NCBI GenBank assembly: GCA_905233945.1
Contig: CAJOFY010000002.1
Coordinates: 67,188 to 131,187 of the forward strand
Direction: 5' to 3'
From: an uncultured bacterium
GTDB lineage: Bacteria > UBP6 > UBA1177
Length of the DNA: 64,000 nt
In this document: piece after piece, positions 10,801 through 26,849 of the stretch
Position numbering within the stretch: position 1 is the first letter of the stretch
How the letters are laid out: the number at the start of each line of letters is the position of its first letter
Made by a program: the position numbers and the translations under genes
Notes under the pieces: model-generated
What the model saw: only the letters and a program-made list of their open reading frames with translations
What the model was told of the DNA's origin: nothing
The model's database searches: none

Positions 10801-11481
10801 ATGAGTGAAAACGCTATTCTGACTTTGGAAAACATAAAAAAATCCTACTTTGTGGAAGGTCACAGGATAGATGTCCTGCGCGGCGTAAATCTGGAAATGA
10901 AAGAGGGCGAGCACCTTTCGCTTACCGGAAAAAGCGGCTCGGGAAAATCGACTCTGCTCAACATAATGGCAACTCTGGAGAAGCCCGACAGCGGCAGACT
11001 TCTGCTCAAAGGCGAGGAACCCTCAAAGTTTTCTGATGCAAAGCTCAGCGCCTTCAGAAACCGTGAAATCGGCATCGTTTTCCAGTTTCACCATCTTCTG
11101 CCGGAATTTACGGCGCTTGAAAACGTTGCGATCCCGCTGATGCTGACCCAGTCGAAAAAAACGGCTCTCGAAAAGGCTGAAAAAATGCTCGGAAGGGTCG
11201 CACTTTCGCACCGTCTGAACCACAAACCGGCGGAACTTTCGGGCGGAGAGCAGCAGCGCGTCGCCATTGCCCGGGCACTTGTCACAGAGCCGTCGCTTCT
11301 TTTGATGGATGAACCTACGGGAAATCTGGACAACGAGACAGGAAAAATGATAATAGCACTTATTCTTTCCATTGCTGAGGAAAGAAATTTGACGACTCTT
11401 TTCGTTACGCACAATCAGGATTTTGCTGCGGAAATGGGAAGAGTTATTGAGATAAATGAAGGAGTTATCCGTAGTATATGA
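10801..11481 (+). CDS. lolD: Lipoprotein-releasing ABC transporter ATPase LolD
   Basis: LolD powers the release of lipoproteins by the LolC/E permease encoded just upstream. The 226-residue protein has Walker A GKSGSGKST near residue 44, the Q-loop VFQFHHLLPEFTALENV, signature LSGGEQQRVAIARAL, and Walker B LLLMDEPTGNLD. The H-loop is in LFVTHNQDFA. The FQFHHLLPEF segment is characteristic of LolD as against other MacB-like ATPases. The stop overlaps the bamA start by 4 bases, so lipoprotein sorting and outer-membrane protein assembly are coupled in one transcript. Confidence 0.95.
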   Translation: MSENAILTLENIKKSYFVEGHRIDVLRGVNLEMKEGEHLSLTGKSGSGKSTLLNIMATLEKPDSGRLLLKGEEPSKFSDAKLSAFRNREIGIVFQFHHLLPEFTALENVAIPLMLTQSKKTALEKAEKMLGRVALSHRLNHKPAELSGGEQQRVAIARALVTEPSLLLMDEPTGNLDNETGKMIIALILSIAEERNLTTLFVTHNQDFAAEMGRVIEINEGVIRSI

Positions 11482-19401: not shown

Positions 19402-19429
19402 ATTATAGTTTACTTTATCTCTTTAAGAA
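19402..19429 (-). promoter_or_regulatory. Possible promoter of the LPP20-like gene
   Basis: On the minus strand TATAAT at 19402-19407 is preceded, after 16 bases, by TTCTTA at 19424-19429, which overlaps the 3' end of the upstream lipoprotein gene. The -35 is weak. Confidence 0.4.
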
Positions 19430-22400
19430 GGAACTTGAGTGTCGATATGTTCGCTCTGTTGTAGCCCTCTGTTCCGCCGCCTGCGCCGCCGGTATAAAGC
19501 TCAAAGTGCTTGAAATAGGACATGTTGAAAGCGTCTTTTATTTCGACCTTATAGGTTTTGCTGCTGAGCAGATCGACCTGAACAAACGACGATTCGCCCC
19601 AGGTCTCCCAGTCGTCACGCCCCAAATGCGGCATAAAGACCATTTTTTCCAAAACAACTTCATTGTTTTCATCGGTAATTTTAACTATTTTGTTGCATGA
19701 AGTGATTCCTGTGTCTATCGGACGTCCGCTGGCGTATTCCAAAGAGATGAGATATGTTCCGCTGTGCTCCGGTCTGACATTTGAAACGGAAAGAACTTCA
19801 GCAGGTCTTCCCCAGTCGCCGAAGTGATCCTTGCCGTGGTACAAATCACCGTTCGCAGCTGTTATAGTCGGAGTCTGGTCGAAATGGTTTGCCGTGAACT
19901 TCCATTGCGCCCGTTCGTTGTCGTTTTCGCCCCAGTAGCATGCAGGATCCGCATGATGGCTTTCCCAGCCTGCGGTATTTACTGCAGAAACACTGTAACA
20001 GTATGATTTTGTTGAATAATCGCCAGAATCATTGTCGACCCACGAAGTTTCATTGACATTTTCCGCCACTTTTACGCCGTCACGATAAATATTGTATGAA
20101 TCTGCATCATCGGAGGGCGAAAATTCGACTTTGAGGCTTCCTCCCTCCAATCTGACTGAAACATTCTCGACACCGCGGGGTGCCCAGCATGCCTGATAAT
20201 TGTTGACGCAGTCCAGGAGATTTGTCCTTCCGGCGCTGCCTGTCTGCTTCAAACGCAGTTCGATTCTGTTTATTCCGTCATCTCCATATTCAATGGAGTT
20301 TTCCGGTTTGAAATCAGAATCTTCGTCAGAAAAAGGTTCTGTTTTCTCTACGCCGTTAAGTTTAAGCGAATCCAGGACATAAAAACCTTCAGTTTCATTG
20401 TTTTTAGGAGGAAGAATGATTTTCAGTTCAATCGTTTTTCCTTTGAAATTCAGGTTTTTAAGAACGATTTCGCTGCTTCCGGCAAAGAAAGTGTTTCTCA
20501 GATTGACGGGGATTTTCGGAGAGAACCAGATCTTTTTCAAAGTCTGATCCCTGCCGAAAAGAACATCGAGAACCATCGAAATGAATCCGCCGATACTCCA
20601 GAGCTGACGCCTTGAATTTACATGCGGGCCGCTCATCCTGTCACCTTGGAAATCAAGATAGGCATTGTCTTCAAGCCATGAGTTGAGAGTGGTAAATTCA
20701 AAGTTTTCCATGTTCGAGAGGTTGAAAGCCGCTCCGCGTACAAGGCTCATGAACGCGTTCTCGTAAAATTTGTCGTTTTCCACTTTTGCCGCGGCACGAA
20801 GAGCATATGAAGTTACAAAAGGCCATATTGCGCGGTTGTGGTAGATTTTTCTCTGCGGCTCCTGCGGGAAAATTACCGAGGGACCTGCTTCGGTGATCGG
20901 GTATTCTTCAAGAATTGCAGAATGTATTTCGGCTGCCATCTCTTCATTCCAGTCAGCAATATCAGAAGTCGTTCCAAGAATGAGAAGCGAAAGACCTAAA
21001 AGATCCCTTTTGTCAACTGCGGAATAATCAAGGAAAGTCGTTTTCATGCTTGCAAAAGTCTTTCTGTCAATTTCCGGCATATAAATATAAAATCCCGATT
21101 TTATCGCCTGCAGAAGCTGCCATGACTGGGATCTGAGTTCTTCGACATCAGCATCACGATGCAGTTCTTCAGCAAGAGAGGAAGCCATGTTCATCGCAAT
21201 AAAATGGAGAACATTCGTCGAAAGGCTCTTCGACATTCCTATGTGTTTTGTATTCTTCGCAGTCCAGAGCGGATAAGTCTGCTCTCTCCAGTCGAGAAAA
21301 GACTGTTCGCCGCGGTACAAACCGTCTTTTTCATCGAAAACATAGAGTCTGTCGGCATCAAGAGTGTTTTTTATCGCCTCGTAGGATTCTGCAAGAAACG
21401 CTTCGTATTCTGCTCCTTTAAGGTTTTTCAAAGTTTCATAGGCACCGAGCATCCAGACAATGCGGTCTGTGCTTACCGGCCACGATCCGCCGGAGCCTGT
21501 ATCCTGGACTATCTGTATGTTTCCGCCGCCGACTGAATCCTTCCACGGTGAAATCTTGAATTCAAGCGAGTTCTTCGATCTCTCAGGTTCAAGGAAAGCG
21601 ATTCCGGAATGAACTGCGTAAGCGGTGTCGCGGGTCCAGACATAGTGCCATGCCGCACCTGTTTCGAAACATTCGCAGTCAACCGGATTCTCGTTATTCA
21701 TGCTGTAGTCCGTAATCGCCGAAACTTTATTTGCGTCAAGTTCTGTGATCGCAAGCGCAAAAAGGGCGTCGAGCATGGTGTTTCCGCTGCGGAGAAGAGG
21801 TCTGTTTTCTTTTTCAGAAACAAGACATTCCTTGGATTCCAAAGGTTTTCCGCAAACCTTCATATAGTCGTTTTTATTGCTCAACTCATCAAAATAATAC
21901 CAGCCGTACTCATCACCGTGTTCCCAGCGCAGAGGTGCATTCGTAGTCAGAGTATAGCTTCTGAGTTTGCAGCCTGAAACCGAGACCGTTCCTGTTTTGC
22001 CTTTCCACTCGACTGATGAAGGAGTTGCACCGTCACATTCTTCAGGCGCATCGCCGTCAGTGTCACCGTCGGAATCGTCATCACCGGTTTCATCGGAGTC
22101 GGCGTCGCTGTCGGATTCGCCGTCATCGTCACAATCCGCATCAGAGGAATCATCCGTTTCGTATGTGTCGGTGTCGGAATCATCAACGACAATATCGTCC
22201 TCAACATCGGTATCAGAATCGCCGTCATCAGGTTCGCTGTCGTCAGAACCGGAACCGTTGTCGTCAGTATCATCACCGCCGCAACAATCCGAATCCCCGG
22301 TTTCCGTGTCATCTCCGGTACCTGTGTCATCGTCCTTGCCGCTCGGATCTGTATCGGAACCATCATTGTTTTCCGGTATATCGTTGTCTGTTGCAGCAGG

Positions 22401-22571
22401 ATCAGAATCTGTATCGGAAGACCCGTTTCCGCCGGAATCGCCGTCGTTGCAGTCCAGACAATCCGAATCATTAAATTCTGTGTCGGAATCAGAATTTGAG
22501 TCGCTGCCTTTTCCTCCGCCGCAGCTGAACATAAAAATCGCGGCAAAGATCAGTAAAAAAAGTTTTTTCAT
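19410..22571 (-). CDS. Large surface lipoprotein with six-hairpin glycosidase-like domain
   Basis: The 1053-residue protein has a lipobox (FMFSC at residue 17) and then about 165 residues of extreme Ser/Asp/Gly low complexity. The central part (about 250-780) resembles an (alpha/alpha)6 glycoside hydrolase of the glucoamylase/GH63/rhamnosidase superfamily: HYVWTRDTAYAVHSGIAFL, YHNRAIWPFVTSYALRAAAK, and SRRQLWSIGGFISMVLDVLFG. A fibronectin-III-like segment (about 795-870, ADSYNIYRDGVKVAENV) and a C-terminal jelly-roll-like domain follow. It is probably a surface enzyme attacking alpha-linked glycans. The exact family and catalytic acids cannot be fixed by eye. It is the last gene of the trmL-led run, 5 bases after the small membrane protein. 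Confidence 0.78.
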   Translation of the reverse strand: MKKLFLLIFAAIFMFSCGGGKGSDSNSDSDTEFNDSDCLDCNDGDSGGNGSSDTDSDPAATDNDIPENNDGSDTDPSGKDDDTGTGDDTETGDSDCCGGDDTDDNGSGSDDSEPDDGDSDTDVEDDIVVDDSDTDTYETDDSSDADCDDDGESDSDADSDETGDDDSDGDTDGDAPEECDGATPSSVEWKGKTGTVSVSGCKLRSYTLTTNAPLRWEHGDEYGWYYFDELSNKNDYMKVCGKPLESKECLVSEKENRPLLRSGNTMLDALFALAITELDANKVSAITDYSMNNENPVDCECFETGAAWHYVWTRDTAYAVHSGIAFLEPERSKNSLEFKISPWKDSVGGGNIQIVQDTGSGGSWPVSTDRIVWMLGAYETLKNLKGAEYEAFLAESYEAIKNTLDADRLYVFDEKDGLYRGEQSFLDWREQTYPLWTAKNTKHIGMSKSLSTNVLHFIAMNMASSLAEELHRDADVEELRSQSWQLLQAIKSGFYIYMPEIDRKTFASMKTTFLDYSAVDKRDLLGLSLLILGTTSDIADWNEEMAAEIHSAILEEYPITEAGPSVIFPQEPQRKIYHNRAIWPFVTSYALRAAAKVENDKFYENAFMSLVRGAAFNLSNMENFEFTTLNSWLEDNAYLDFQGDRMSGPHVNSRRQLWSIGGFISMVLDVLFGRDQTLKKIWFSPKIPVNLRNTFFAGSSEIVLKNLNFKGKTIELKIILPPKNNETEGFYVLDSLKLNGVEKTEPFSDEDSDFKPENSIEYGDDGINRIELRLKQTGSAGRTNLLDCVNNYQACWAPRGVENVSVRLEGGSLKVEFSPSDDADSYNIYRDGVKVAENVNETSWVDNDSGDYSTKSYCYSVSAVNTAGWESHHADPACYWGENDNERAQWKFTANHFDQTPTITAANGDLYHGKDHFGDWGRPAEVLSVSNVRPEHSGTYLISLEYASGRPIDTGITSCNKIVKITDENNEVVLEKMVFMPHLGRDDWETWGESSFVQVDLLSSKTYKVEIKDAFNMSYFKHFELYTGGAGGGTEGYNRANISTLKFLLKEIK

Positions 22572-22576
22572 AGTGT

Positions 22577-22876
22577 CTACCTATTGCTGTTAATAAAAAA
22601 ATTAAAGTTGAAGCCATTGTTTTCACTGTCATTTTCGTTAATTCCGAGCGAATCTTTCACAGTGAATACAAGAACGAGGACAAAAATCAGAATCCCCAGA
22701 AAAATACATGTCCTTTTAAGGAGAATCCCCGAAAAAAGAAAAATCAAAGCGAGCGCCGAATAGAGTTCCGCACCCTGCGCACCGTTCAGCACAAAAGCTG
22801 AAAGTGCAGACAGAATCAATATATCAAGAATATTCCACCAGACAGGTTTTATGTTTTTTCTTTTTTTCTCACTCAT
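22577..22876 (-). CDS. Small hydrophobic membrane protein, unrecognised
   Basis: The 99-residue protein begins with a basic segment (MSEKKRKNIKPVWW) and has about three hydrophobic stretches (ILDILILSALSAFVL, ALALIFLFSGILL, IFLGILIFVLVLVF). A short Asn-rich tail ends it (NENDSENNGFNFNFF). It starts at the base after the stop of the cNMP-binding gene, so it is probably translated by coupling. I recognise no family. The tight spacing on both sides makes it a credible gene in the transporter operon. Confidence 0.7.
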   Translation of the reverse strand: MSEKKRKNIKPVWWNILDILILSALSAFVLNGAQGAELYSALALIFLFSGILLKRTCIFLGILIFVLVLVFTVKDSLGINENDSENNGFNFNFFINSNR

Positions 22877-23317
22877 CTATTTTTTAGCAACTTTTTCGGC
22901 AAGTTTGGCATTCAGTTCTCTGATGCGTCCCGTAAGAACGCGGATAACACCGAGAGCAACCTCGTCGCGCTGTTTTAAAATCTCAAGGAAATCGTCACTT
23001 TCCATTTTGAGAACAAGAACATCGTTTCTTGCCACAATATCGGCGCTTCTCGGCTGGTTGTCGATGAGCGCCATCTCGCCGAATCCTGCCCCTTCCTTCA
23101 TAACGGCAACGACATTTCCTCCGGCAACGACCTCGACTTCGCCTTTCACGATCATAAAAAGCTCTTTTCCGAGATCGCCCTCGTTCACGATATACTGCCC
23201 TTTCTCGAAACTCTCCTCTTCGAGCAGAGCGGCTATATCGGCAAGGACTTCACCGGGAATATCGTGAAAAAGCTCAATGTTTTTAAGTGCAAGCACCCTT
23301 TCGACTCGTGTAAGCAT
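22877..23317 (-). CDS. Cyclic nucleotide-binding domain protein
   Basis: The 146-residue protein is a single CAP-type cNMP-binding domain: LFHDIPGEVLADIAALL, GQYIVNEGDLGKELFMIVKGEVEVV, and the phosphate-binding cassette GFGEMALIDNQPRSADIVA. The Arg in PRSA is the usual cyclic-phosphate contact. A short C-terminal helix (ELNAKLAEKVAKK) follows, with no DNA-binding domain, so it is not a Crp-like regulator. In related transporters such a domain is fused to the NTT-HEAT protein; here it is encoded 8 bases downstream of that gene. It may act as a separate regulatory subunit. A GGAGG site precedes the ATG. Confidence 0.88.
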   Translation of the reverse strand: MLTRVERVLALKNIELFHDIPGEVLADIAALLEEESFEKGQYIVNEGDLGKELFMIVKGEVEVVAGGNVVAVMKEGAGFGEMALIDNQPRSADIVARNDVLVLKMESDDFLEILKQRDEVALGVIRVLTGRIRELNAKLAEKVAKK

Positions 23318-23325
23318 CTTTCCTC

Positions 23326-26205
23326 CTATGCTTCAGGCTGCAGAACAGAACGCGAATACCGGCAGAGATATGCGTCTGTATCGTTCAAAAGATAATGTCC
23401 GTCCGTTTCGGCGATCTTCATTTTAAGATAATTCATCGCATAAAGCGCGGCTTCGCGGACTATCGGGCTCGGATCATACAAAAACATCTGTATTCTGCCG
23501 TAAATATCGGCAATATGCTCGTGAGCAATCGCATAAAGCGTTACGCAGCGCACCCATTCGGAATCATCTGAAAGCAGAGTCTCGATAATATCGTTTATTT
23601 TCAGTTTCTTTACACTGAAGAACTGATAACCCAGACTGAGTTTTTCCTCTTCGGTCCTGCTTTCGATAAGCGGAACGATTATCGGCCTTATATCCTTGTC
23701 AACAATGTTGTCGATGATTTCAAGTGCGTTTGCCCGCTGTGAAGGAAGAACGAATTTTCTGGTTATGTTGAAATAGATGTTGTCAAAGAGCGAATTGCCG
23801 TACATCAGCGAAAGTATTGAGAAAATACGCTGATAGCAGTTGTCGAGCTTCGTTGACATGACATCGGTCAGACAGTCGGTCTTCAAGTTTTTACGAATCT
23901 GGACTGAGAAGTAAAGCGTCTGGAAATATTGATAAATTTCTCTTAAAAGCAGAACTTTGAGCGCATCTTTGTCAAGAGTCACCTTTTCAATCTTTGAAAG
24001 AAGTTTTTTCATGCTGTTAAGGGCGATATTCCGCATTTCGTCGCTTTCGGTGTCAAGCGACAGAGCAAGCAGCCTGAAGGATTCCGGCACGTATATGTCA
24101 CCGAGCATTTTCGCGACTTCGCTTTTCAGACGGTAACTCTCAAGTTTGTTCGACAAAATGTCGGCAGCAGGTTCAAGAATCTTCTCGCCGAATTTTGAAA
24201 GCACTTTCGCAACATCAAAACTGACTTCCCGGTCAAAAAGCATGTAAAAAAGTTTCGGAATAAAGACGTTGGAATCGATTTTAGAAGCGGCATTGACCGC
24301 GGCACGTCTGACAACCGGACTCGAATCGTTCAAAAGGGTGAAAAGCTGCTGATCCATGTTCTTCTGGCCGAGTTCGCCGAGAATATAGGCCGCAGCAGCC
24401 CTGTCAGTCGCGTTTTCGGACTCAAAAAACGCCTTGAGATAGGAACCCGCCGTCATTGCACCGACAACGCCGGCATATTTGATGAGAGCTATTACCGCAG
24501 CTTCCCTTATCATGATTTTGTCGCTTTCAAGGAACGGCGAGATAAATTTCACAGACTTGTCCATCTGGATGTAGCCGTATGTCAGGATCGCCTCACGGAG
24601 AACATCATCATCCTGTTCTTTGAATAATTTCAATATGTTATATGTATTATATCTGCTTTCCATACGGCGCATGAGCGACAGGATTTTGACCTTGATCTTA
24701 GGAGTCGCCTTTGAAAGAAGCGCGACAAAATCGCGTCCGAAAGCGGAGTTTCCTGAACTTTCGACCATATCGATGGCCATTGACAGATCCTCGTCGTCAC
24801 CGCTTTCAATCGCTTTCTGTACAATGCTCTGAAGCACATTAAGCTGCATCGTAAGCTGGTTCGTGCCGAAACGTTTTTTCTTGATGTTGTCAATCAAAAC
24901 CGAAAGATAGCGGCTTCTGATGCCGACAATCGTCCCGAGCCAGAGAATGCCGATTACAGTGACAATCCACGAAATCAGCTTGACATCGGAAGGAACGATA
25001 CCCGCCTTTCCGAGATAGCTGACAGCAAGAAGAATAAAGCCCGAAACACCGATGAATATCGGTTTGACCATGCCGTCGATTATCGCTTTCGTCCTGCTTT
25101 TTATCTTGGGGTCAAGCGGAATATACAAAAGCTGGATCGCCGCGTCGTTTATGGTGTAGCGGAACGCACTGTCGCCCGATTTCGCCATTGTTATCGCGAC
25201 AAGAGGCGCCGCAAGGCCGAACATTACAAGATCCGGCGGAACCGCGATGAAAAAGATCGAACTCAAAGTGAGAATCGCCGGAAGTATTCCCAGACTCATG
25301 AAAATGCTGAATTTGAGCAGCCGCGAAGTCGCCACAAGCTGGAAGAAAAGCGAGAAAACGCCGCCGAAAACCGAATATACGAAACCGAAGTAAGCGGCCA
25401 GTTTCTGCGGATCGGTTATTGTGTCGGAAGCGACAATCTTGAACTGGTAGTCGACAAGCGTAACAACGACGTAGATAAGGGCAATCATTATCGCGATGTA
25501 CTTGACGTAAGGCGTCTTTGAGATGCTTACCTGCGAAGCCGCCGCATTCGCCGCCTGTTTCGGCGTAAGAGTTTTCGAAACGACACCTCTCTGGAGTCGG
25601 CTCTGATACTTTCTCCCCATAAAGCGGACAATAAGAATGCAGATGAACATGCACAGAGCGTTTATGAACAGGAGATACTGCACTTTTCCGAGAAGGACCG
25701 CCAGCTTTCCTACCGAGCCGCCGACAGCCATGCTTGCGATGATTCCGCCGCACCCGACAAAGCCTAAGACCCTCTTCGCCTCACGCGAATCAAGCAGTTC
25801 GTTGGTGAACGACCAGAACTGGAACATCATAAATGCGCCCAAAAGCTCGATAAAAATGTAAAGCAGCGAAAAAGCCCAGGAAATTTCGCTGTTTATCAGC
25901 CCGACAAATATAAGCGTAAAGACAATCCCGATTGAAAAAGTCGCCGTTATGAGCTTGTCCATCCGGTAAAACGAGCTTCTTTTCGTGTAAAAGAACGTCG
26001 CCGTCGAAACCAGAATCGCGACACCGATATACATGAACGAAAGCATCAGCCTGTCGCCTTTGTATTTGTTCAGAAAAAGCGTGTCACGGACGATTCGGCC
26101 CATAACCATGATGGAAGTCGCCAGAAAATTGTATGCAAAAAGCATGAATGCGCGGTTTCTTTCATCCGGATTGTTCATGCTGAAAGCTGCCAGAAGCCTT
26201 TTCAT
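23326..26205 (-). CDS. NTT-family (ATP/ADP carrier-like) membrane protein with C-terminal HEAT repeats
   Basis: The 959-residue protein has about 12 transmembrane helices in residues 15-440. They resemble nucleotide transporters of the Npt/Tlc family (FMLFAYNFLATSIMVMGRIVRDTLFL; FQFWSFTNELLDSREAKRVLGFVGCGGIIAS). The remaining ~500 residues are HEAT-like helical repeats (DDVLREAILTYGYI, DSSPVVRRAAVNAASKI, DPSPIVREAALYAMNYL). NTT proteins exchange ATP for ADP in intracellular parasites. Relatives with HEAT and cNMP domains occur in free-living bacteria, and their substrate is unproven. It lies 2 bases after trmL and 8 bases before the cNMP-binding gene. ATP import should not be assumed. Confidence 0.85.
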   Translation of the reverse strand: MKRLLAAFSMNNPDERNRAFMLFAYNFLATSIMVMGRIVRDTLFLNKYKGDRLMLSFMYIGVAILVSTATFFYTKRSSFYRMDKLITATFSIGIVFTLIFVGLINSEISWAFSLLYIFIELLGAFMMFQFWSFTNELLDSREAKRVLGFVGCGGIIASMAVGGSVGKLAVLLGKVQYLLFINALCMFICILIVRFMGRKYQSRLQRGVVSKTLTPKQAANAAASQVSISKTPYVKYIAIMIALIYVVVTLVDYQFKIVASDTITDPQKLAAYFGFVYSVFGGVFSLFFQLVATSRLLKFSIFMSLGILPAILTLSSIFFIAVPPDLVMFGLAAPLVAITMAKSGDSAFRYTINDAAIQLLYIPLDPKIKSRTKAIIDGMVKPIFIGVSGFILLAVSYLGKAGIVPSDVKLISWIVTVIGILWLGTIVGIRSRYLSVLIDNIKKKRFGTNQLTMQLNVLQSIVQKAIESGDDEDLSMAIDMVESSGNSAFGRDFVALLSKATPKIKVKILSLMRRMESRYNTYNILKLFKEQDDDVLREAILTYGYIQMDKSVKFISPFLESDKIMIREAAVIALIKYAGVVGAMTAGSYLKAFFESENATDRAAAAYILGELGQKNMDQQLFTLLNDSSPVVRRAAVNAASKIDSNVFIPKLFYMLFDREVSFDVAKVLSKFGEKILEPAADILSNKLESYRLKSEVAKMLGDIYVPESFRLLALSLDTESDEMRNIALNSMKKLLSKIEKVTLDKDALKVLLLREIYQYFQTLYFSVQIRKNLKTDCLTDVMSTKLDNCYQRIFSILSLMYGNSLFDNIYFNITRKFVLPSQRANALEIIDNIVDKDIRPIIVPLIESRTEEEKLSLGYQFFSVKKLKINDIIETLLSDDSEWVRCVTLYAIAHEHIADIYGRIQMFLYDPSPIVREAALYAMNYLKMKIAETDGHYLLNDTDAYLCRYSRSVLQPEA

Positions 26206-26207
26206 TT

Positions 26208-26666
26208 TTATACCCTGAAATCAAGTTGTTTCATTGCTTCAAAAATCACCGCAGTCGCCGCGCTCGCGAGGTTCAAACTTCTCACCCTGCCGTCGAGCAT
26301 CGGAAGAAAGCGCGTCTGTTCCCTGTATCTTCCCAGAATTTCGTCGCCGAGCCCCTCGGATTCGCACCCGAAAACAAGGAAATCGCCGTTTTTATAGGGA
26401 ACTCTGTCATATCTTTTTTCACCTTTCTGCGAGAAAAAGTGCATTTTTGCCGGGTCGTTCGCCGCAAAAAAATCGTCCTTTGAATCCCATTCCGTAATCT
26501 CGACAAATTTCCAGTAATCTACACCGGCACGTTTAACAGCCGCCGTATCGAGCCTGAAGCCGTAAGGTTTGACGAGGTGAAGCCTGCATTTCTGCGAAAG
26601 CACAGTGCGTGCGATATTGCCTGTATTCTGCGGAATTTCCGGATTTATGAGTACAATTTCGAACAT
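26208..26666 (-). CDS. trmL: tRNA (cytidine/uridine(34)-2'-O)-methyltransferase TrmL
   Basis: TrmL is a SPOUT methyltransferase that 2'-O-methylates the wobble base of tRNA-Leu isoacceptors. The start at ATG 26666 gives 152 residues, the family length, and begins FEIVLINPEIPQNTGNIART, the classical N-terminus. The longer reading frame upstream covers untranslated sequence with a palindromic element. The C-terminal trefoil knot is seen in FLVFGCESEGLGDEIL and RSLNLASAATAVIFEAM. It leads a run of five close genes whose other products are envelope proteins, an unusual setting. Confidence 0.93.
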   Translation of the reverse strand: MFEIVLINPEIPQNTGNIARTVLSQKCRLHLVKPYGFRLDTAAVKRAGVDYWKFVEITEWDSKDDFFAANDPAKMHFFSQKGEKRYDRVPYKNGDFLVFGCESEGLGDEILGRYREQTRFLPMLDGRVRSLNLASAATAVIFEAMKQLDFRV

Positions 26667-26696
26667 AATTCCCGACTCAAAAATCAAAAACATAGG

Positions 26697-26723
26697 ATTA
26701 TACTGTTTTTCTAAGAAAAACAA
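26697..26723 (-). promoter_or_regulatory. Possible promoter of the trmL-led unit
   Basis: On the minus strand TATAAT (26697-26702) lies 30 bases before the trmL ATG. TTGTTT (26718-26723) stands upstream with a 15-base spacer. The remaining ~130 bases up to the palindromic element show no gene. Confidence 0.42.
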
Positions 26724-26849
26724 AGTTTTCACCGTAAAAACGTGGTCTGCAACCCACCTGTTTCCCATCGCCTGAAAAATCTCCCTTCGCCACACTGGAG
26801 AGCTATCAGATATCCTACCGATTCCTGCCGCCAGTCCAGGCTCCACTGA

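Follow-up and report, generated by a model that had tools for sequence, protein, structure and literature searches.

The window, a stretch of 64,000 nt from a bacterium of a lineage called UBP6-type (genome size 2.65 Mb), carries 3 closely spaced minus-strand frames for proteins of 959, 146 and 99 aa; re-derivation of the ORF positions returned these frames as the first-pass annotation had given them. They encode, respectively, a membrane protein with HEAT repeats (NTT-HEAT), a free cyclic-nucleotide-binding domain (cNBD) protein and a small membrane protein (Table 1). The NTT-HEAT and cNBD genes are separated by 8 bases, the cNBD stop codon is followed with no gap by the ATG of the 99-aa frame, and a glycosidase-like gene lies 5 bases downstream of the latter. 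We observed the TrmL-like gene upstream in 20 of 24 loci from the window's order; 3 of the remaining 4 are contig ends, and the fourth is L051, for which the upstream 8 kb were read. Scans of the locus for promoters and terminators gave counts of 10 and 13, vs 12.9 and 13.4, respectively, in shuffles.

Table 1. Features of the locus, numbered by position in the window
Feature	Position	Strand	Evidence or context
NTT-HEAT protein, 959 aa	23326..26205	-	ORF, Pfam, AlphaFold model, structural matches
NTT (TLC, MFS-fold) membrane part, residues 1-442	24880..26205	-	Pfam TLC 46-433; model helices 13-442; AtNTT1 Z 39.0 over 1-438
HEAT-repeat helical solenoid, residues 455-955	23341..24843	-	Pfam HEAT_2 in 3 stretches, best 591-653; model helices
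Free cyclic-nucleotide-binding domain protein, 146 aa, cassette FGEMALIDNQPRSADIVA	22877..23317	-	Pfam cNMP_binding, cassette alignment
Small membrane protein, 99 aa, adjacent, judged not part of the module	22577..22876	-	Clear in one genus only
Acidic-linker lipoprotein-like protein, weak six-hairpin glycosidase similarity (context)	19410..22571	-	Co-occurs with the 99-aa gene at the locus
TrmL-like tRNA methyltransferase (context)	26208..26846	-	2 bases upstream of the NTT-HEAT gene

The 959-aa protein belongs to the Pfam TLC/NTT family (PF03219, 69.4 bits vs a cut-off of 21) and scored 84.2 bits with HEAT_2 (cut-off 27.7). Its HEAT repeats lie C-terminal to a single NTT domain in the same polypeptide, which is the arrangement of the NTT-HEAT proteins of Major, Embley and Williams, 2017 (PMC5381601). 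An AlphaFold model, for which the input was 35 aligned sequences from the window and related loci, had a mean pLDDT of 83.3 and a pTM of 0.65, and it showed twelve long helices within residues 13-442 and a helical solenoid onward to residue 955. By profile, the NTT part matched AtNTT1 (E 6.8e-43) and Chlamydia NTT1 (E 1.2e-46), and these 2 transporters occupied ranks 1-4 and 6 in a Foldseek search with the model. The best structural match to this predicted model was ADP/Pi-bound AtNTT1 (9j3m, Z 39.0 over 421 residues, 2.9 A), which identifies the NTT fold; 9j3l followed at Z 35.0, LacY was third at Z 30.5, and the remaining three NTT1 entries scored 29.4-30.4. LacY thereby outranks three of the five NTT1 entries; that unrelated MFS carriers score close to NTT1 reflects a shared fold and nothing more. 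The Pfam scores and the predicted fold thus bear out the original description of an NTT-like membrane protein with HEAT repeats.

We compared the membrane part with 9j3j at the positions of 4 AtNTT1 transport residues, adding 84 to the 9j3j chain number to obtain the published numbering (K71=K155, E161=E245, E301=E385, K443=K527; matched by eye). The profile alignment placed K155 at Y59, E245 at E120, E385 at D252 and K527 at I385, a pairwise alignment putting K527 at V387 instead; an initial guess that K155 aligned with R40 was ruled out by the profile alignment. Of the canonical set K155/E245/E385/K527, then, E245 alone is identical at the aligned sites and E385 is conservatively replaced. 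Among 45 NTT-HEAT rows, which include the window and some truncated sequences, position 59 is Y in 31, F in 11, I in 1 and a gap in 2, with K or R in none; E occupies position 120 in 26, and D occupies position 252 in 44. Position 385 has K or R in 7 rows and position 387 in none. Four residues away from the K527 site at 385, position 381 (K381 in the window) has K or R in 32. According to an excerpt of the AtNTT1 mutational literature (PMC3306366), ADP binding depends on K155, ATP binding on K527 and translocation on E245, and the K155R change abolishes ADP binding. Excerpts of a second report (PMC4256464) describe the 4 residues as strongly conserved among bacteria and state that the substrate range of NTTs cannot be predicted from primary sequence.

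Because the ADP- and ATP-binding lysines of AtNTT1 are missing at the aligned sites, ordinary ATP/ADP exchange by the NTT-HEAT protein appears doubtful from these alignments. It is accordingly unlikely, in our judgment, that the protein is an ATP/ADP exchanger of the intracellular-parasite or plastid kind with added regulation, even though it has the same fold, an ADP/Pi-bound exchanger as its best structural match, and E120 and D252 to keep the charge at E245 and E385. K381 could also stand in for K527, and the same excerpts (PMC4256464) report that the microsporidian ThNTT1 and ThNTT3, which lack three of the four residues at aligned sites, still import ATP and GTP. Against these points are to be set the Tyr at the K155 site, the Ile or Val at the K527 site, the effect of K155R in AtNTT1, and a score of 61.6 bits with NCBIfam TIGR00769, the canonical ATP/ADP translocase subfamily, for which the cut-off is 387.2. 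The missing lysines bear also on a second alternative, in which the NTT part is transport-dead and the protein acts as a HEAT scaffold or receptor anchored in the membrane, passing on a signal together with the cNBD. HEAT repeats are protein-binding, and a likely regulatory partner is encoded next to this protein. However, we observed that eight positions of the membrane part (W131, D252, F255, Q289, P309, G386, G389 and W422) are invariant over 35 aligned rows, which is more conservation than a mere anchor should need, and we regard a scaffold of this kind as quite improbable.

The 146-aa protein scored 77.5 bits with Pfam cNMP_binding (PF00027, cut-off 27.5), and its cassette FGEMALIDNQPRSADIVA is intact, with Glu and Arg present. 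We take the Gly, Glu and Arg-Ser of this cassette to be the residues that hold the cyclic phosphate in CRP. The Pfam match, the intact phosphate-binding cassette and the 8-base spacing agree with the proposal, made in the first-pass annotation, of a linked but separate cNMP-binding protein. Among 43 distinct domains that we aligned, of which two belong to another protein of L060 that is not adjacent, the cassette Gly is present in 43, Glu in 36, Arg in 41 and Ser or Thr in 34. The Arg is lost in L063 and in L045, a locus from the same genus with PSDAD instead of PRSAD; seven domains, among them those of L026, L029, L062, L063 and L068, have the Glu replaced. With the cassette replaced in several loci, some such cNBDs may not bind cyclic nucleotide. 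A class III cyclase match (101.8 bits) is present in the window's own genome, together with a second, weaker protein, and the translation of the cyclase shows the usual metal and catalytic residues. The genome has five cNMP-domain matches in four frames, the cNBD of the locus being one, and the other cNMP-binding proteins could be targets of the cyclase.

At E <= 1e-10, 36 of 118 genomes matched the 959-aa protein. A match was present in 24 of 25 genomes from the window's order and in 0 of 3 from the other family of the phylum; the one order-level genome missed, G024, is 65% complete and is missing the cNBD as well. Taking one locus per matching genome (L001-L024), we observed that a separate cNBD gene follows in 22 of the 24, the other two (L019 in G018 and L024 in G021) being contig ends inside the NTT-HEAT gene. 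In both of these genomes a second contig begins with the tail of the gene (G018:C258, 1-348; G021:C2, 1-996), and the cNBD follows on that contig (406-843 and 1049-1486, respectively), so that the 2 genes are adjacent in 24 of the 24 genomes that have both. When whole genomes of the order were searched with the cNBD protein, the same 24 of 25 yielded close relatives (E 1e-53 or better), and each of these sits at the NTT-HEAT gene. Of 22 loci in which the gap between the 2 genes was measured, 14 have 8 bases, and three negative values arise because the longest frame was taken. The linkage of the 2 genes in the order is far beyond chance.

Outside the order, we examined 28 distinct loci (L025-L027, L029, L030 and L060-L082; L028 coincides with L076), which were drawn from pattern and similarity searches and hence are not an unbiased sample. 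In other phyla, fused homologues occur: the cNBD is fused to the NTT-HEAT protein in 10 of these loci, separate and adjacent in 7 (gaps of -14 to 121) and not adjacent in 8, and contigs end in 3. A weak cNBD match lies ~5 kb upstream in 2 of the loci that have no adjacent cNBD (L075 and L081). That 8 of 28 loci have no adjacent cNBD indicates that NTT-HEAT proteins can dispense with it. Pairwise distances among the NTT-HEAT proteins correlated with those among the cNBDs, with r of 0.97 for 39 loci, 0.96 for the 22 UBP6-type loci and 0.70 for 17 distant loci (last cNBD used where two exist; the duplicate L028 removed); in each set, r was reached by none of 999 label shuffles, the shuffle being one that ignores shared ancestry. 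We also looked for a further conserved partner in L060-L082, with adjacent cNBD ORFs excluded, and saw no common one among the 25 commonest of 68 Pfam families in 71 neighbouring ORFs (70 of 93, plus one longer ORF of L068; L080 contributed none). The most frequent family was Omp85, with 5 of the 71.

The distribution of the 99-aa gene was different from that of the other 2. Pfam gave no family over cut-off for its product. In whole-genome searches, 13 of the 25 order genomes had a clear match, and all of these were from the window's genus (13 of 15), whose genomes are mostly rumen and gut MAGs; no match was found in 11, and in G016 a partial match of marginal score (E 8.9e-4, 32% over 57 residues) lies on another contig. 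In all 13 genomes that clearly have it, the 99-aa gene is at the NTT-HEAT locus with the glycosidase-like gene beside it. The two other members of the genus, G004 and G010 (77% and 72% complete), have a MutT-like gene after the NTT-HEAT and cNBD genes on one contig and the glycosidase-like gene on a different one. Different genes, named by eye, follow the cNBD in other genera; the glycosidase-like gene occurs in 22 of the 25 order genomes and in those other genera is on other contigs. In six regions that have other downstream genes, we found no ORF related to the 99-aa protein. On the simplest reading, the 99-aa and glycosidase-like genes arrived at the locus together within the genus, and the 99-aa protein appears to be a local neighbour rather than a conserved subunit.

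The first-pass annotation had grouped all 3 genes into a possible cyclic-nucleotide-gated complex. The linkage of the 3 genes holds inside the genus but not outside it, where we observed the lack of conserved linkage that the annotation itself had named as counting against the idea. The 99-aa gene follows without a gap in the window and is linked in 13 of 15 genomes of the genus, as a complex with 3 subunits might suggest; nevertheless, the gene for the putative third subunit is tied to the glycosidase-like gene in a single genus and has other genes in its place elsewhere. On this distribution we reject the 3-protein complex, which we consider very improbable.

The unit made up of the NTT-HEAT and cNBD genes is real, is strongly conserved in the order and is of a kind already described. 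Our preferred reading, to which we give a probability of roughly 60%, is that the locus represents, in a gut bacterium of UBP6 type, the published NTT-HEAT-cNBD family in its split (unfused) form, and that it provides secondary transport tuned by a cyclic nucleotide. For the coupling, the ligand and the substrate of the predicted transport we infer the following. The NTT part, with its MFS fold, would carry out secondary transport of a metabolite that is anionic and possibly resembles a nucleotide, and the cytosolic HEAT solenoid would be the arm on which the free cNBD docks. The cNBD would bind a cyclic nucleotide, probably cAMP from the genome's class III cyclase, and the ligand-bound cNBD would then move against the HEAT arm, such that transport may be raised or lowered. 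Cyclic-nucleotide control of the putative transporter is plausible. We suggest, much more tentatively, that the whole NTT-HEAT-cNBD clade may consist of cyclic-nucleotide-controlled secondary transporters that have left ATP/ADP exchange for a different anionic substrate, with a control domain that is freely fused, separate or absent, and with some lineages adding a second single-domain NTT as a hetero-pair. What the locus contributes is a further lineage and clean comparative data; it is no new system. Its split form is handy for experiments, since these can be run with or without the sensor. To our knowledge, secondary transporters under cyclic-nucleotide control are few, and proof of such control would therefore matter.

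In the open-licence literature we found the term NTT-HEAT in 2 articles (PMC5381601 and PMC6995639), and we found there neither a functional study of an NTT-HEAT protein nor a paper on the 9j3j structures. Major et al. described NTT-HEAT proteins as a monophyletic clade that was widespread and, in 2017, uncharacterised, with members in Chlamydia and oomycetes (PMC5381601). For some members they reported a separate cNBD gene downstream, within several nucleotides, or a fused NTT-HEAT-cNBD version in other lineages, and they had already proposed control by cAMP; the fusion part of this description is repeated in an excerpt of PMC6995639. With the split arrangement published in 2017, the contrast drawn in the first-pass annotation, of a separate cNBD as new against the fused forms as known, does not hold. 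The window's locus, with its 8-base spacing, has the same domain order and the same immediately downstream cNBD gene as theirs, and shares the idea of cAMP control; it differs in lineage, UBP6 being absent from their Table 1, and we found no further difference.

As the nearest stand-in for a complex of the NTT-HEAT and cNBD proteins, we modelled the fused homologue L065 (Marinimicrobia, 1056 aa; mean pLDDT 83.6, pTM 0.68), which folded as an NTT part, a solenoid and a C-terminal cNBD. This model matched AtNTT1 and cAMP-receptor proteins and, as a multi-domain match, the sperm Na+/H+ exchanger SLC9C1, whose structure is solved, at TM-scores of ~0.1, which make SLC9C1 a precedent of domain order only. 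SLC9C1 is also a secondary carrier with a cytosolic cNBD, and in that sense a precedent for how the locus proteins might work, although it has a different carrier fold, a voltage sensor, no HEAT repeats and a fused cNBD. AtNTT1 and Chlamydia NTT1 (PDB 9j3j-9j3o), in contrast, have the NTT fold in common with the 959-aa protein (Z 39.0 to 9j3m), which keeps their E245 as E120 and replaces their E385 by D252 while missing their K155 and K527 at the aligned positions; they are without HEAT repeats or a cNBD, whereas the locus protein adds a HEAT solenoid to the shared fold.

The lipoprotein-like protein encoded just downstream of the 99-aa gene in the window carries a long linker rich in Asp, Ser, Thr and Gly, and relatives of this protein are present in 22 of the 25 genomes of the order.

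Features with coordinates
Feature	Locus	Position	Remark
Lipoprotein-like protein, 1053 aa	window	19410-22571	glycosidase similarity weak
cNBD	L045, same genus	10881-11339	

In 2 species of the genus (L047 and L048), the position of the 99-aa gene after the cNBD gene is occupied by a gene that we take, from a sequence motif, to be MutT/Nudix-like. In the cassette alignment, the phosphate-binding Arg is missing from the cNBD at L045, which may reflect either a genuine change or a sequence error.

Elsewhere in the window's own genome, a membrane protein (L031, contig C12) ends in a C-terminus with 2 cNMP-binding domains and is a second candidate cyclic-nucleotide effector of this genome. Contig C11 also contains a frame of 1279 aa (L084 and L085) that the class III cyclase domain matches more weakly and in separate pieces.

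At 2 comparison loci, L044 (L013) and L072, two overlapping ORFs stand in place of one NTT-HEAT frame; perhaps these are assembly frameshifts. Among the distant loci, a single-domain NTT gene adjoins the NTT-HEAT gene at 6 (L026, L062, L066, L067, L071 and L078), and NTT-HEAT genes are doubled in tandem at 2 others (L061 and L077). Such tandem pairs, of which we found no mention in the consulted part of the 2017 description of NTT-HEAT proteins (PMC5381601), may represent hetero-pairs.
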